From: Acidobacteriota bacterium
Lineage (GTDB): Bacteria > Acidobacteriota > Terriglobia > Versatilivoradales > Versatilivoraceae
Length of the DNA: 49,318 nt
NCBI GenBank assembly: GCA_022821775.1
Contig: JAJECY010000233.1
Span: 1 to 49,318, forward strand
Direction of reading: 5' to 3'
Shown here: piece by piece, positions 16,558-22,310 of the stretch
How the letters are laid out: each line of letters opens with the position of its first letter
Numbering within the stretch: position 1 is the first letter of the stretch
Program-made: the position numbers and the translations under genes
Notes under the pieces: generated by a model
Database searches by the model: none
Seen by the model: the letters and a program-made list of their open reading frames with translations, nothing else
Told to the model about the DNA's origin: nothing

Positions 16558-17253
16558 CTAGCCCGGGACGTCGATCCTGTCCTGGGTGGTGGGGTAGAAA
16601 CTCAAGGTCATCACGAAGCTGCCGAGGGTGGGACGGCCAAGAAAGGTGGCAGGGTCCATGTTTACCCCGAAATAGAGGAATCGATCCAGGAATTCCAGAC
16701 TCCGTTCATCTCGCGGCCCGCTCAAGACCGTGTAGTCGATCACCCGACCATCCTCACCGACCAGAGTCTTCACGGTGACCGGCTGGGTTACAAACGGCAA
16801 ATCGGCGCCAAACACGACAGGCATCATGGTCAGAGACCTGGCGCGAGGCTCGGTGAACAATCCCAGGGCAGAGTCGGGGTCGCCGGAGCCCAGGCTTGCG
16901 CCGCTGAACAGGGTGCTCAACAGGACGATAAAGGTCAAGCAGGTCAGGAAGACGCCGCTGAAGGCCGGAACGGCCAGGGGATTCATCAGATCGCCCAGCT
17001 TGTTGACCAGTTGTTTCAGAGACATTCTCTCTCCGTGGATCGAGGCGGCCACCCTGATCCTCAACTCGAGGTCCGGTGGAGAAGGCCGGCGGTCCAGCTT
17101 TCGCATCATCTGCTGCAGTGCCCGAAACTCGTCCAACGCCTGCCGGCAGCAAGCGCAATCCGCCAGGTGGCGGTCGAGCTCAATCCTCTCCCTCCCGAAC
17201 AATCCATCATCCAGGTAGCTGTGAATCAATCTGAGGGCCTTCTTGCACGTCAT
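16558..17253 (-). CDS. Zinc-finger anti-sigma factor with membrane anchor
   Basis: This 231-aa protein has an N-terminal ZAS-type anti-sigma domain with the HxxxCxxC motif H29, C33, C36 (HLADCACC), one TM helix at about 93-117, and an extracytoplasmic domain of about 110 residues (SLTMMPVVFG to the end). The outer domain contains VKTLVGEDGRVIDYTVLSGP, which resembles the TonB C-terminal/energy-transducer fold; this is a pattern judgement. It is encoded 59 nt downstream of the ECF sigma gene with a GGGAGACAGGAA leader. It should hold the sigma factor inactive until an envelope signal acts through the outer domain. Confidence 0.88.
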   Translation of the reverse strand: MTCKKALRLIHSYLDDGLFGRERIELDRHLADCACCRQALDEFRALQQMMRKLDRRPSPPDLELRIRVAASIHGERMSLKQLVNKLGDLMNPLAVPAFSGVFLTCLTFIVLLSTLFSGASLGSGDPDSALGLFTEPRARSLTMMPVVFGADLPFVTQPVTVKTLVGEDGRVIDYTVLSGPRDERSLEFLDRFLYFGVNMDPATFLGRPTLGSFVMTLSFYPTTQDRIDVPG

Positions 17254-17312: not shown

Positions 17313-17927
17313 TCACTCTCGGATCAAGCCTCGCAACCGCTGCCTGAGCTGGCAGCGTGCTCGCCACAAACGCGATTTCACCGTGCCCATGGAGATCGCC
17401 AGGGTTTCGGCAATCTCCTCGTAGGTAAGTCCTTCGATGTCCCTCAAGACGATGACCGTGCGAAACTCCACGGCCAAGGCGGCCAACGCCCGTTGGACAG
17501 CCTGCTCTGTCTCTCTCCTGGCGAATGCCGCCTCCGGATCCTCTGCTGGATTGGGGACTTGCAGGAATCTGGGGCCTTCTGGGGACGAGGGCAGCGGTGC
17601 GTCCAGTGAAAAGGGAACGTGCTCCTTCCAGCGCTTCCACCAGCGACGGCGGTTGAGGCTGGCCGAGACGGCGATCTTGTAGATCCAGGTCTTGAGACCG
17701 CATTCTCCGCGGAATCGACCGATGGCCTTGTAGATCCGGACAAAAGCCTCCTGGGTCGCCTCCGAGGCTTCGGCCGAATCTCCCAGAATCCGGTAGGAAA
17801 GGTTGTAGATGGGGGCCTGGTAGAGGCGCACCAGCGTCTCGAATGCCTCCTCGGAACCCACCTGCAACCCGTCCACCAGGGACGGTTCGTCGTCCAGAAA
17901 GTCCAAGCCAAGCTCGCAATTGAGCAA
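17313..17927 (-). CDS. ECF-family RNA polymerase sigma factor
   Basis: This sigma factor has region 2 (LVRLYQAPIYNLSYRILGDS, then EASEATQEAFVRIYKAI, then CGLKTWIYKIAVSASLNRRR) and region 4 (LPxE-like ALAVEFRTVIVLRDIEGL, with helix-turn-helix TYEEIAETLAISMGTVKSRL). I chose the TTG at 17927 (204 aa) because AGGAGAG lies about 8 nt upstream and the protein then has normal ECF length. An ATG at 18002 gives 229 aa but has no ribosome site and would leave only 30 bp to the divergent fusion gene. Its anti-sigma factor follows. The target regulon may include the divergent gene at 18033. Confidence 0.92.
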   Translation of the reverse strand: MLNCELGLDFLDDEPSLVDGLQVGSEEAFETLVRLYQAPIYNLSYRILGDSAEASEATQEAFVRIYKAIGRFRGECGLKTWIYKIAVSASLNRRRWWKRWKEHVPFSLDAPLPSSPEGPRFLQVPNPAEDPEAAFARRETEQAVQRALAALAVEFRTVIVLRDIEGLTYEEIAETLAISMGTVKSRLWRARCQLRQRLRGLIRE

Positions 17928-17933
17928 GAGTCT

Positions 17934-17940
17934 CTCTCCT
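17934..17940 (-). promoter_or_regulatory. Shine-Dalgarno that favours the TTG start of the ECF sigma gene
   Basis: The minus strand reads AGGAGAG here, 6-7 nt before the TTG at 17927. No such site precedes the ATG at 18002. Using the TTG leaves about 105 bp for a divergent promoter. Confidence 0.5.
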
Positions 17941-18032
17941 GGTCCGCCTGATTTTCGGGTGTTTCCCCCAAGATACCAAGCATTCGGAGTGAAAGACAAC
18001 ATTCGACTCTACAGACCCCCGGGACACCGAAA

Positions 18033-20630
18033 ATGTTCCCCTTGAAAAGAGCTTGCCCCGCGAAAACGAAAACACTAAGATACCCAACCGCTCCAATCCT
18101 CCTGGAAACCCAACCTTTGTTCGATCTCCTTTGCCGCATTCGGAATCACCCAGCGCTCGCCCTTCTGTTGGCCGTCGGCCTTTCCCTCTTCTCATTCTCC
18201 GTTCGGTTGGCGGCCGGTCCCCAGGGCGCCGCGCCCCAATGGGCCAAGATCGACGGCGCCGTAGGAAGGGCCATCGACAATGGCCGGATACCCGGCGCGG
18301 TGGTGCTGGTGGGTCAGGCCGGCCACATCCTCTTTGAAAGGGCCTACGGCCATCGCAGCCTGGAACCCCGTCCGGAGCCGATGACCCTGGAAACCCGGTT
18401 CGACCTGGCTTCCCTGACCAAGGTGGTGTCCACCGCCCCGGCCGTTCTGAAGCTGGTTCAGGACGGGAAACTGTCGCTGGACGATCCGGTAGCCAAGCAT
18501 CTCCCGGACTTCGGCCGCCGCGGGAAGGAGACCATTACCGTCCGGCAGGTGCTGACCCACTATTCCGGATTGGCGCCCTTTTTCCGTCTCGAGGCCAAGA
18601 CCCCCGGAGCCGCTTCGGCGGTCATGGACAAGATCCATCATTCCGACTTGTCGGCCGCACCGGGAACCCGATTCATCTACAGCGATCTCGGATTCATTCT
18701 TCTGGGCAAGCTGATAGAGGTCGCCAGCGGAGAAACCCTGGACCGCTTCGTTCAGTCCCGGGTCTTTTCTCCTCTGAAGATGGCCGATACACGATTCAAT
18801 CCTCCCCCCGCTGACCGCCGCCATGTCGCTCCCACCGAAAAAGGGGATGACGGGACATTCCTGAGGGGTCGGGTTCATGATCCCCTGGCATCGATGATGG
18901 GCGGGGTTGCCGGTCATGCGGGTCTCTTCTCCAGCGTCCGCGACCTTTCCCGCTACTGCCGCATGCTGCTGAACGAGGGAACGCTGGAGGGCGCCAGGAT
19001 GCTGCAGCCCGGGCTGGTCCGACAAATGATCTCCCCCCAATCTCCGCCGGGCAAACCCGACGTTCGCGGATTGGGCTGGGACATTCAGTCCCGTTACTCT
19101 TCGGTCAAGGGTGAGCACTTCTCGCCGCGCTCTTTCGGCCACACCGGCTTTACCGGAACCTCCCTTTGGCTGGACCCTGAAAGCCAGGCCTACGTGATTG
19201 TTCTGACCAGCCGCCTCCACCCTGACGGCAAGGGCGACGTCCGAGCCCTGCGCAGAGAGATTGCAACCATTGTCGGCGAGGTGCTTTCCCCCGCAACGGA
19301 CCAGGCCTCAGGACACTCCGAACCCATCCTGATTCAACCCCAGATCCGGTTTCAGCGGGTAGACGGGTTTGGCGTCAGCGGTTCCAACGGCTGCGCCAAG
19401 GCAATTGAAAACCTCCCCTCGGCGGAGCGCCTCAGGCTCTTCGACCTGCTCTTCGGCCCCAAGGAAGCGGGCCTGAATATCCTGAGAAGCGAAATCGGAT
19501 GGACCGGACAACGAATCGCCATTACCGCCCGCTTGAGACTGACCGGCCTGACCTATTCGTTCGGTGGGGACAAGAGAGAGAACGCTCAATTCTCGTTGCT
19601 GCGGCAGGCCAGGAAACGCCAGGAAGTCCTGTTGAGCAGTTGCATCTGGACTCCCCCGCCCCCTTGGAAGAGCAATCAGGCGGTGGATGGCTCGGGGTCG
19701 CTCCTGGCCCGACATTACCAGGACCTGGCGGAATACGTAGCCGGTTACGTCGAGTACTACGAGAAGCTGCGCGGCCAACCCGTCCACCTGGTGAGCCTGC
19801 AGAACCGGCCCGACAGCAGCGACGCTCCGTTCGGCTGCCGGTATGAGACAGGCCAACTCAGGGACCTGGTCAAGATGGTCGGAGAGAGGTTTCGCGAGAA
19901 AAGAATCCGGACCCGACTCATGGTTCCGGAGGCCGGCTGGGGAGAGGCGCTACCCTTCCTGCGAGCCCTGTTGGACGATCGAGAGGTTCGGCCTTTTCTC
20001 TCGCATGTGGGAGTTCAATCTTCAGCGGGGCCGAACCCCGGGGCCGATGCCATCGACCAACTGGTGCGACGACACAATTTCAACCTGTGGCAGACCGAAT
20101 TCACGACTCCGGCCGGCAACGGAGACGAGATGGACGAGGCTCTGAACCTGGCCGAAGCCCTCATCAGCGACCTGTCGCGGGGCTGTCGGGCCTGGCTCTA
20201 TGGCCCGGTATTCGCCACCGAAGCTCAAGCGGGACGCCTGGGCCTGCTTGAACGCACCAGGACCGGATTCCGCGCTCCCAAGCGCTTCCGGGCTCTGACC
20301 CAATTCAGCCGCCATATCCCCAGGGGCGCCGTTCGGGTGTATGCAAGGGGAGGCGGCACACCGGCGGTGGCCTTCCGGAACTCTGCCGACCGTCAACTGG
20401 TGGTGGTGCTTGTCAATCCAAAGGAGGAAGCCGTCGAAGAGGAAATCGAGCTGCGCGGATTCAGGCTCGAAAGCATCGAGATGTTCAGAACTTCCGCGGT
20501 CGAGAACAATCGGGCTGCCGAACCCACTCCGGAAGCGGGGTCCAGGCTGAAACTCACCCTGGCTCCCAAGAGCATCACCACCATGCGGGCTTCCCTGCGA
20601 CCGGCATCCTCCGACCGGTCACGCCAATGA
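18033..20630 (+). CDS. Fusion of class-C beta-lactamase-like serine hydrolase and GH30-like domain
   Basis: This 865-aa exported protein has a hydrophobic signal or anchor at about 40-62. Residues 65-415 are a serine beta-lactamase/DD-peptidase fold with complete catalytic motifs: S127-LT-K130, Y216-SD and H370-TG. Residues 435-855 resemble GH30 glycosidases of clan [18 protein letters not shown]-type repeat, [18 protein letters not shown], the C-terminal beta domain with [15 protein letters not shown] and LAPKSITTM. The nucleophile-like E689 (WQTEF) is kept. The acid/base Glu expected in the NEP motif is Arg592 (LQNRPD), so normal retaining hydrolysis is unlikely. The start is uncertain: the ATG at 18033 lacks a ribosome site, and an in-frame TTG at 18117 would begin nearer the hydrophobic segment. 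It is divergent from the ECF sigma operon, and its 3' end overlaps proS by 12 nt. Confidence 0.85.
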
Positions 20631-22310
20631 AGCTTGAGCGTGGGGGACCAGGTCCGCCAGGTCGACCTCCGTGATCTTTCCGGTAGCCCGTTCCACCCAT
20701 TCCACCTTTCCCAAGGCCAGCTTGCGGCTGCCGAAATTGATCCGATAGGGAATCCCGACCAGGTCGGCGTCCTTGAACTTGACCCCCGGGCGCTCCTTCC
20801 GGTCGTCCAGCAGAACGTCGACTCCCAGTTCCTGCAACGTCCGGTAGGCCTTCTCGGCTTCCTGCATCACGGCGCCGTCCTTGGCGTTCACCACGCAAAT
20901 CAGGCAGTCAAAGGGAGCAATGGAAGGCGGCCAGACGATTCCGTCGTCATCGTGACCGCTTTCGACGGCGGCCGCCAGAATCCTTTCCACTCCAATCCCG
21001 TAGCTCCCCATGACGACCGGAACCTCCCGGCCCTGCGAGTTGAGCACGGTGGCTCCCATGCTCTCCGAGTACCTGGTCCCCAGCTTGAAGATGTGCCCGA
21101 CCTCCAGGGCCTTGTGAATTTTCAGCGAGGAACCGCATCGGGCGCACGCCTCTCCGGCCCGAACCTCCCGCAAGTCGAAATACTCGGCCTGGTAATCCCG
21201 TCCGGGTGTCACTCCGGAGAGGTGAAAATCATTCCGATTGGCTCCACAGGTCAGATTCCGTCTTCCCTTGAGAGCATGGTCGGAAAGAATACGCAGGCCC
21301 GCCACCTCCACCGGACCCAGGGAACCGGCGTCGGCCCCCGCCACTTCCGGGATTTCCTCCGGCCGAGCGGGACGGGCTTCGCCCCCCAGCACCGCATGCA
21401 GCTTGGCTTCATTGAGTTGGTGGTCCCCTCGAACCAGAACCAGCAGGGATTGGCTGCCAAACCGATAGACCAGGGACTTGATCTGGCGGGAAGCCGGGAC
21501 TCCCAAAAACCGGACAATGTCATCGATGGTCTTCTGGCCGGGAGTGGCGACCGGTTGTGGCGTCTCGGGCCCGGCTTCATCCTGCAGCGACTCCAGTTCC
21601 GAGGTCGCCTTCTCCAGATTGGCCGCGTAACCGCAGGCGCAGTGGACGACCATGTCCTCGCCGGCATCGGTCAGCACCATGAATTCATGGGACTGGCTTC
21701 CGCCCATCATGCCGCTGCTGGCCTCGACCACTCGATAGCGGAGCCCGCAGCGCTCGAAGATGCGGCAATAGAGGTCATAGTGCTTTCGATAGCTCCGGTC
21801 CAATCCCTCCCGGTCGACATCGAAGGAGTAGGAGTCCTTCATGGTGAACTGGCGCACCCGAAGCAACCCCGATTTGGGCCGAGGCTCGTCCCGGAACTTG
21901 GTCTGTACCTGGTACCAGATCTGGGGCAACTGGCGATAGGAGCGGAGCTCGTTGCGGGCGATGGATGCAAAGACCTCCTCATGGGTCATGCCCAGGCACA
22001 TGTCCCGGTCGGAGCGGTCCTTGAGACGAAACATGTTGGGCCCCATGCCCTCCCAACGGCCGCTTTCCTGCCAGATTTCAGCCGGGTGCAGGGCGGGCAA
22101 GGCAAATTCCTGGGCGCCCATGCGATCGAGCTCGTCCCTGATGATCCGGGTGATCTTGAGCATCACCCGCTGGGCCAGAGGCAGAAATGAATAAATCCCC
22201 GAGGCCAGTTGTCGAACGTATCCGCCGCGCAGGAGCAGGATATGGCTCGGCACCTCGGCCTCGGCAGGGGCTTCCCTCAGGGTGGGGATGAAGCTTTGAC
22301 TCCAGCGCAT
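20619..22310 (-). CDS. proS: Prolyl-tRNA synthetase (bacterial type)
   Basis: This 563-aa class II synthetase charges tRNA-Pro. Motif 1 lies near LQ(R)[17 protein letters not shown], motif 2 is [26 protein letters not shown], and motif 3 is [16 protein letters not shown]. Between motifs 2 and 3 is the editing (INS/YbaK-like) domain, about 225-385, as in bacterial enzymes. The C-terminal anticodon-binding domain ends in the [16 protein letters not shown] region. Length matches the family (about 570). The ATG at 22310 follows GGAG. Its 3' end overlaps the fusion gene. Upstream lies a CACGAA-type repeat. Confidence 0.97.

Follow-up and report, generated by a model that had tools for sequence, protein, structure and literature searches.

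A single open reading frame in this Acidobacteriota genome joins a serine hydrolase of the beta-lactamase fold to a second half that resembles glycoside hydrolase family 30 (GH30) and carries Arg at the site of the acid/base Glu. This arrangement raises the question of whether the second half is still an enzyme, perhaps with new chemistry, or a module that serves the hydrolase without catalysis of its own. On balance, we consider it probable that an exported muropeptide hydrolase and a dead GH30 acting as a sugar-binding module were once encoded by neighbouring genes and have been fused in two sister species. According to this proposal, the N-terminal serine hydrolase would be exported and would act in peptidoglycan turnover by hydrolysing peptide or amide bonds of muropeptides. 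Loss of glycosidase activity in the GH30 barrel would predate the divergence of the sampled family members, and the barrel would have been kept as a non-catalytic sugar-binding module that either anchors the hydrolase on a glycan or controls access of the substrate to it. The common ancestor of the genome studied here (G000) and its sister species (G005) would then have lost, in frame, the stop codon of the first gene and the signal-like segment of the second, leaving one chain. Several observations weigh against the proposal: the copy studied here keeps E689 at the nucleophile site, the hydrolase half matches esterases well and scores under the PBP4B cut-off, the flanking genes scanned include no peptidoglycan-recycling family, and the module is dispensable in one relative (G008).

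The locus lies in a window of 49,318 nucleotides, the term window denoting the whole stretch of DNA that was analysed. The features of the locus and its immediate neighbours, in the coordinates of that stretch, are as follows.

16558-17253, minus strand: zinc-finger (zf-HC2) anti-sigma-like protein, a neighbour.
17313-18002, minus strand: divergent ECF sigma factor, a neighbour whose link to the fusion is unproven.
18033-20630, plus strand: fused open frame, serine beta-lactamase-fold hydrolase plus GH30-like domain, 865 residues from ATG 18033.
18117-18218, plus strand: probable signal-peptide segment, residues 29-62, assigned by eye.
18258-19253, plus strand: serine beta-lactamase-fold (PF00144) domain, YfeW-like by profile match and sequence comparison.
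18411-18422, plus strand: SxxK motif SLTK, residues 127-130, found as SLTK in all nine family loci.
18678-18686, plus strand: YSD motif, residues 216-218, kept in all nine family loci.
19140-19148, plus strand: HTG motif, residues 370-372, kept in all nine family loci.
19281-19319, plus strand: fusion junction, the region that in split relatives holds the gene 1 stop codon together with the signal-like segment of gene 2.
19320-20627, plus strand: GH30-like barrel plus beta domain, predicted to be catalytically dead, from sequence, profile and fold searches.
19806-19808, plus strand: R592 (codon CGG) in LQNRPD, residues 589-594, at the GH30 acid/base site by alignment.
20010-20024, plus strand: GVQSS, replacing the x-H-x-Y stretch of control GH30s by alignment.
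20097-20099, plus strand: E689 (codon GAA) in WQTEF, residues 686-690, at the nucleophile site by alignment.
20619-22310, minus strand: prolyl-tRNA synthetase, convergent, a syntenic flank in several relatives, overlapping the end of the fusion by 12 bases.

The frame at 18033-20630 is uninterrupted and encodes complete SLTK, YSD and HTG motifs, as the initial annotation had described; the C-terminal 436 residues of its product constitute the GH30-like half. ATG 18033 is probably not the true start; a better candidate is TTG 18117 (residue 29), which immediately precedes the signal-like segment. The 5' stretch can be aligned across seven genomes of the genus, and the frame from ATG 18033 is broken by indels or stops in the relatives, in which the equivalent ATG either lies in another frame than the hydrolase or leads into stop codons. 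TTG 18117 is favoured because the hydrolase frame of two relatives (L042 and L044) opens only shortly before the signal-like segment. Between the first ATGs of the fusion and of the divergent sigma gene lie just 30 bases (18003-18032), a hint that one or both of these starts have been placed too early.

With a PF00144 match at E 2.4e-79 and the same three motifs in 9/9 family loci, the first half has the marks of the serine beta-lactamase/PBP fold. Among NCBIfam models its best match is PBP4B (NF002968; E 1.9e-47), at 162.1 bits below a curated cut-off of 385 bits, and the class C beta-lactamase model NF033085 yields 54.2 bits, under its curated cut-off of 415 bits. The half most resembles Escherichia coli YfeW (PBP4B) and a hydrolase domain of its own genome. 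YfeW is 31% identical across 365 aligned columns (E 2e-47), with corresponding motifs aligned, and differs in having other neighbours and no GH30-like partner. The sole other PF00144 match in the genome is a hydrolase fused to a GH3 (NagZ-type) domain (L002; 38% identity, E 1e-79), and a VHD...MGGV..HAGLF stretch is common to the hydrolase half, YfeW and this GH3-fused domain, which align over most of the domain.

The genome studied here also encodes a NamZ exo-muramidase; NamZ is the product of ybbC in Bacillus subtilis, and AmiE of that species has the beta-lactamase fold. In E. coli, yfeW belongs to the murQ-murP-yfeW operon, and the B. subtilis MurNAc recycling cluster includes amiE, nagZ and ybbC (PMC5061867). 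The comparison with AmiE (YbbE), a MurNAc-L-alanine amidase, draws on its place in that cluster and on the fold; the cluster description names no GH30-like partner. Similarity and genome content together suggest that the hydrolase half may carry out AmiE-like cleavage of peptide or amide bonds in muropeptides.

Alternatively, the hydrolase half could be an EstG-like esterase or glucan-active enzyme, tethered by the dead GH30 to a periplasmic or extracellular glucan or a xylan-like polysaccharide rather than to peptidoglycan. Among solved structures, this half is matched best by 4ivi, a family VIII carboxylesterase (E 8.9e-31), and by EstG (7uda, E 8.1e-29), whose substrate is a cyclic glucose hexamer (PMC11389396). 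Xylanases and an endo-beta-1,6-glucanase are among the GH30 relatives of the C-terminal half. Moreover, the ten flanking genes scanned in two relatives (G010 and G011) show no common theme and no peptidoglycan-recycling family, encoding RlmN-like, CBS, STAS, weakly TrbI-like, PSD1/PSCyt, Gfo/Idh, xylose-isomerase-like and rhodanese proteins; the six neighbours scanned in the window likewise include no such family. However, the stretch shared with YfeW and with the GH3-fused domain of the same genome argues for the muropeptide side, and NamZ and the GH3-hydrolase fusion point to muropeptide use. The esterase or glucan reading is thus possible but rather unlikely, and a muropeptide substrate is preferred.

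Does the second half truly descend from GH30? It scores under the Pfam gathering thresholds, with 18.7 bits for GH30C (22 required) and 13 bits for the GH30 barrel (23 required). As a single sequence in phmmer, it matches the GH30 enzyme AcXbh30A (7n6h) nearly end to end at E 1.6e-22, and a profile of nine family members matches solved GH30 enzymes at E 1.5e-43, spanning nearly the whole domain. Profile-profile comparison with 15 class-level GH30 sequences, drawn from the 21 controls described below, gives 100% probability and E 7.4e-42. A chance match is ruled out by these three sets of scores, which also back the barrel plus beta domain that the initial annotation had placed after the hydrolase. 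AlphaFold models are weak, with mean pLDDT 53.2 for the domain and 49.5 for the whole protein, below residue-level use for R592 or pocket geometry. With the domain model (pLDDT 53.2), GH30 structures rank first in Foldseek, and the best nine rows of VIA-align are GH30 enzymes (Z 18.9-19.7, 309-360 aligned residues). Fold searches with these models fit GH30 and the beta-lactamase fold at rmsd above 4 A. One structural match, 1nof, is titled as family 5 but has since been moved to GH30. The second half clearly belongs to GH30 by sequence and fold, though it stays under the Pfam gathering scores.

Close copies of this domain were found in nine genomes, including the one studied here, among 101 searched, and all nine belong to one Acidobacteriota family. 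The other eight copies are 43-85% identical to the window domain, with many invariant columns. A profile search of 396 genomes of the phylum gave a match in 44, at E 8.4e-245 in the genome itself and at best values of 2.1e-24 to 6.1e-4 in the other 43, with no further close copy among the matches listed (at most four candidates scored per genome). Beyond the phylum, the reach of the family was assessed by two scans of public genome contigs. The scan with the single domain as query gave no match; the profile scan recovered seven loci, those of G005, G002, G001, G006, G007, G011 and G010, all of them in metagenome-assembled genomes.

The domain and the hydrolase travel together. In all nine domain-bearing genomes the hydrolase either is fused to the domain or immediately precedes it on the same strand, with fusion in two (G000 and G005) and two adjacent co-directional genes in the other seven; in the split relatives the GH30-like gene has its own hydrophobic leader, as judged by eye. 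Measured between conserved anchors on either side of the joint, the gap is 123 nt in both fused genomes vs 187-681 nt in five split genomes, the anchor pattern not being found in G006 and G011. The two fused genomes are sisters in the trees of both halves (support 85/87 and 91/90). Because of this relationship and the equal gap, the one-piece protein most likely reflects a single recent event and is the derived state. The initial annotation had held that separate genes in close homologues, with an artefactual junction, would overturn its reading: separate genes are indeed what most relatives have, but an assembly artefact is ruled out by the identical in-frame joint in the separate assembly of G005. 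The fused gene of G005 also overlaps prolyl-tRNA synthetase, as at 20619-20630 here; in split relatives where both genes were seen they lie farther apart.

The hydrolase is distributed more widely than the pair. An orthologue at least 55% identical is present in 11 of the 12 genomes of the order, and the remaining one (G009) has neither the orthologue nor the GH30-like domain. One relative (G004) has an unfused hydrolase gene on a contig that ends soon after. In G008 the hydrolase occupies the same place beside prolyl-tRNA synthetase and has no GH30-like gene, so the module is not essential to the hydrolase.

This absence at a syntenic locus could be taken to mean that the GH30-like domain is a decaying remnant, without function of its own and heading for loss. 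The GH30-like half also evolves faster, the branch leading to the genus being 0.73 for this half vs 0.38 for the hydrolase half, and in one split relative (G001, L037) a premature TAG removes the last few codons of the GH30-like gene, with the domain core intact. Against decay, dN/dS is 0.20-0.37 for the GH30-like half in 15/15 within-genus genome pairs, compared with 0.20-0.32 for the hydrolase half over as many pairs; both halves are under purifying selection and maintained as proteins. Moreover, all nine copies are open through the domain core, many columns are invariant despite the divergence given above, and the in-frame fusion has been kept in two species. The remnant reading is already disfavoured on these grounds and appears improbable; a maintained module remains the preferred account.

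What the maintained domain could do is best approached through its catalytic residues. In the alignment to AcXbh30A, QNRP falls on QNEP and WQTE on WMTE, which assigns R592 to the acid/base site and E689 to the nucleophile site, exactly as first annotated. The acid/base Glu is missing from all nine family copies, replaced by Arg in seven and Ala in two. The Tyr of the H-x-Y motif, a stretch with an active-site role in GH30, is also missing in 9/9. At the nucleophile position, Glu is present in four copies (E689 and its counterpart in 3/8 relatives) and Gln in five, including the sister species with the same fusion. The conserved Asn ahead of the acid/base site is kept, as in GH30 enzymes. The acid/base Glu, the nucleophile Glu and H-x-Y are all kept in 21/21 control GH30s from other families of the class. 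These controls represent 21 of 25 matched non-family genomes with one match each and comprise 20 distinct sequences, two being identical; G042, G070, G080, G095 and extra matches within a genome were set aside.

The nine family copies form one group (support 100/99) in a tree of 30 sequences. Set against the 21 controls, this makes it most likely that the common ancestor of the nine already had a dismantled catalytic site, the acid/base residue having gone first. A long branch (L026) adjoins the group, and its placement is unsure. Judged by these residues, a GH30 that has lost catalysis is a better reading of the domain than new chemistry. The non-hydrolytic module beside a serine hydrolase that was initially proposed is thereby supported: the acid/base Glu and the Tyr are kept in 0/9 copies and the nucleophile is replaced in 5/9. 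The companion proposal of new chemistry lost its footing because E689, the presumed remaining catalytic residue, varies among relatives. Absence of the acid/base Glu is a family trait, but Arg itself is found in only seven of the nine, with Ala in two; E689 is kept in the copy studied here, but its retention is not a family trait, since 5/8 relatives have Gln.

The window copy might nonetheless still be an enzyme, using E689 as nucleophile without a classical acid/base residue on a leaving group that needs no protonation. Retaining glycosidases without the acid/base residue exist, for example plant myrosinase, and a nucleophile Glu is present here and in the three relatives noted above. Such a reading has to accommodate the loss of the H-x-Y Tyr in every copy and a Gln nucleophile in the majority, the fused sister included. 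The nucleophile codon, GAA here, is CAA (Gln) in all five other domain-bearing genomes of the genus. A hand count on the tree, carried out as a parsimony count rather than a statistical test, needs two changes if Glu became Gln at the base of the genus and was restored by a single base in G000, and three if the losses were independent. An active GH30 half is, on this evidence, very doubtful. A further reading, likewise very improbable, is that the nucleophile became Gln, the domain was then fused, and a one-base return to Glu beside Arg in the window species restored some chemistry; the domain might then, for instance, split a substrate whose self-leaving or anionic aglycone is held by Arg, in one chain with the hydrolase.

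If the domain is dead, binding may be what has been conserved. The replacements seen in the family resemble those made on purpose to inactivate such enzymes. A GH30 xylanase E188A mutant is present in the PDB, and its Ala falls at the Arg/Ala column of the family when aligned with the nine-member profile. A form of that xylanase with both Glu mutated, described in PDB titles as 'double mutant EE', was crystallised with xylo-oligosaccharides, from which it follows that a dead GH30 can still bind sugar. In the preferred reading, the exported hydrolase would trim muropeptides while the dead GH30 keeps sugar strands close to it.

Several known systems resemble the locus in part. AcXbh30A (GH30 subfamily 10) and other GH30 xylanases are alike in the full-length barrel plus beta domain and the Asn before the acid/base site, whereas the family copies replace the acid/base Glu, the H-x-Y Tyr and, in 5/9, the nucleophile Glu. 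Beta-lactamase domains joined to GH3 (NagZ-type) enzymes have been described before, as in Rhodothermus marinus RmNag3 (PMC6987092). RmNag3 and the GH3-fused protein of the same genome (L002) have a like type of serine hydrolase joined to a glycoside hydrolase domain. In these proteins the glycosidase is GH3 and N-terminal (active in RmNag3, as described in PMC6987092), whereas here it is GH30, C-terminal and predicted to be dead. Non-catalytic GH5 subfamilies, such as GH5_30, provide a precedent for glycoside hydrolase subfamilies without catalytic residues, although in a different family and, in the text of PMC3526467 as consulted, with no link to a serine hydrolase (PMC3526467).

Glycosidase-fold families turned into non-catalytic partners of other enzymes make up a known but thin class. 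Titles and abstract openings, in a survey that lay mostly outside subscription journals, described no GH30 example of a dead partner domain. The locus is a variation on known kinds, a lineage-specific, predicted dead GH30 paired, and lately fused, with a cell-wall-type serine hydrolase. Within a single bacterial family the series runs from split genes, through split genes in which a second catalytic residue is lost, to the fused gene, which makes the passage from an enzyme to a binding partner directly testable. The locus also offers a lead on peptidoglycan handling in these Acidobacteriota.

The GH3-fused hydrolase itself occupies L002 88-2589 (contig C11 of G000) and is followed by a NagA-like amidohydrolase (Pfam: Amidohydro_1). 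Ten of the 11 further genomes in the order have frames of 939-1007 codons with such a hydrolase domain, the GH3 part having been verified in G000; the match in the eleventh, G002, sits at the start of a contig.

The divergent ECF sigma factor had been singled out as adding interest to the locus. The sigma and anti-sigma pair is indeed beside the locus in 7/7 genomes of the genus, but it was absent from the sequence examined in G007, G008, G010 and G011, and its link to the hydrolase is weak for that reason. In two of these relatives a STAS gene directly precedes the hydrolase gene, at L046 3920-4423 in G011 and L047 4051-4623 in G010.
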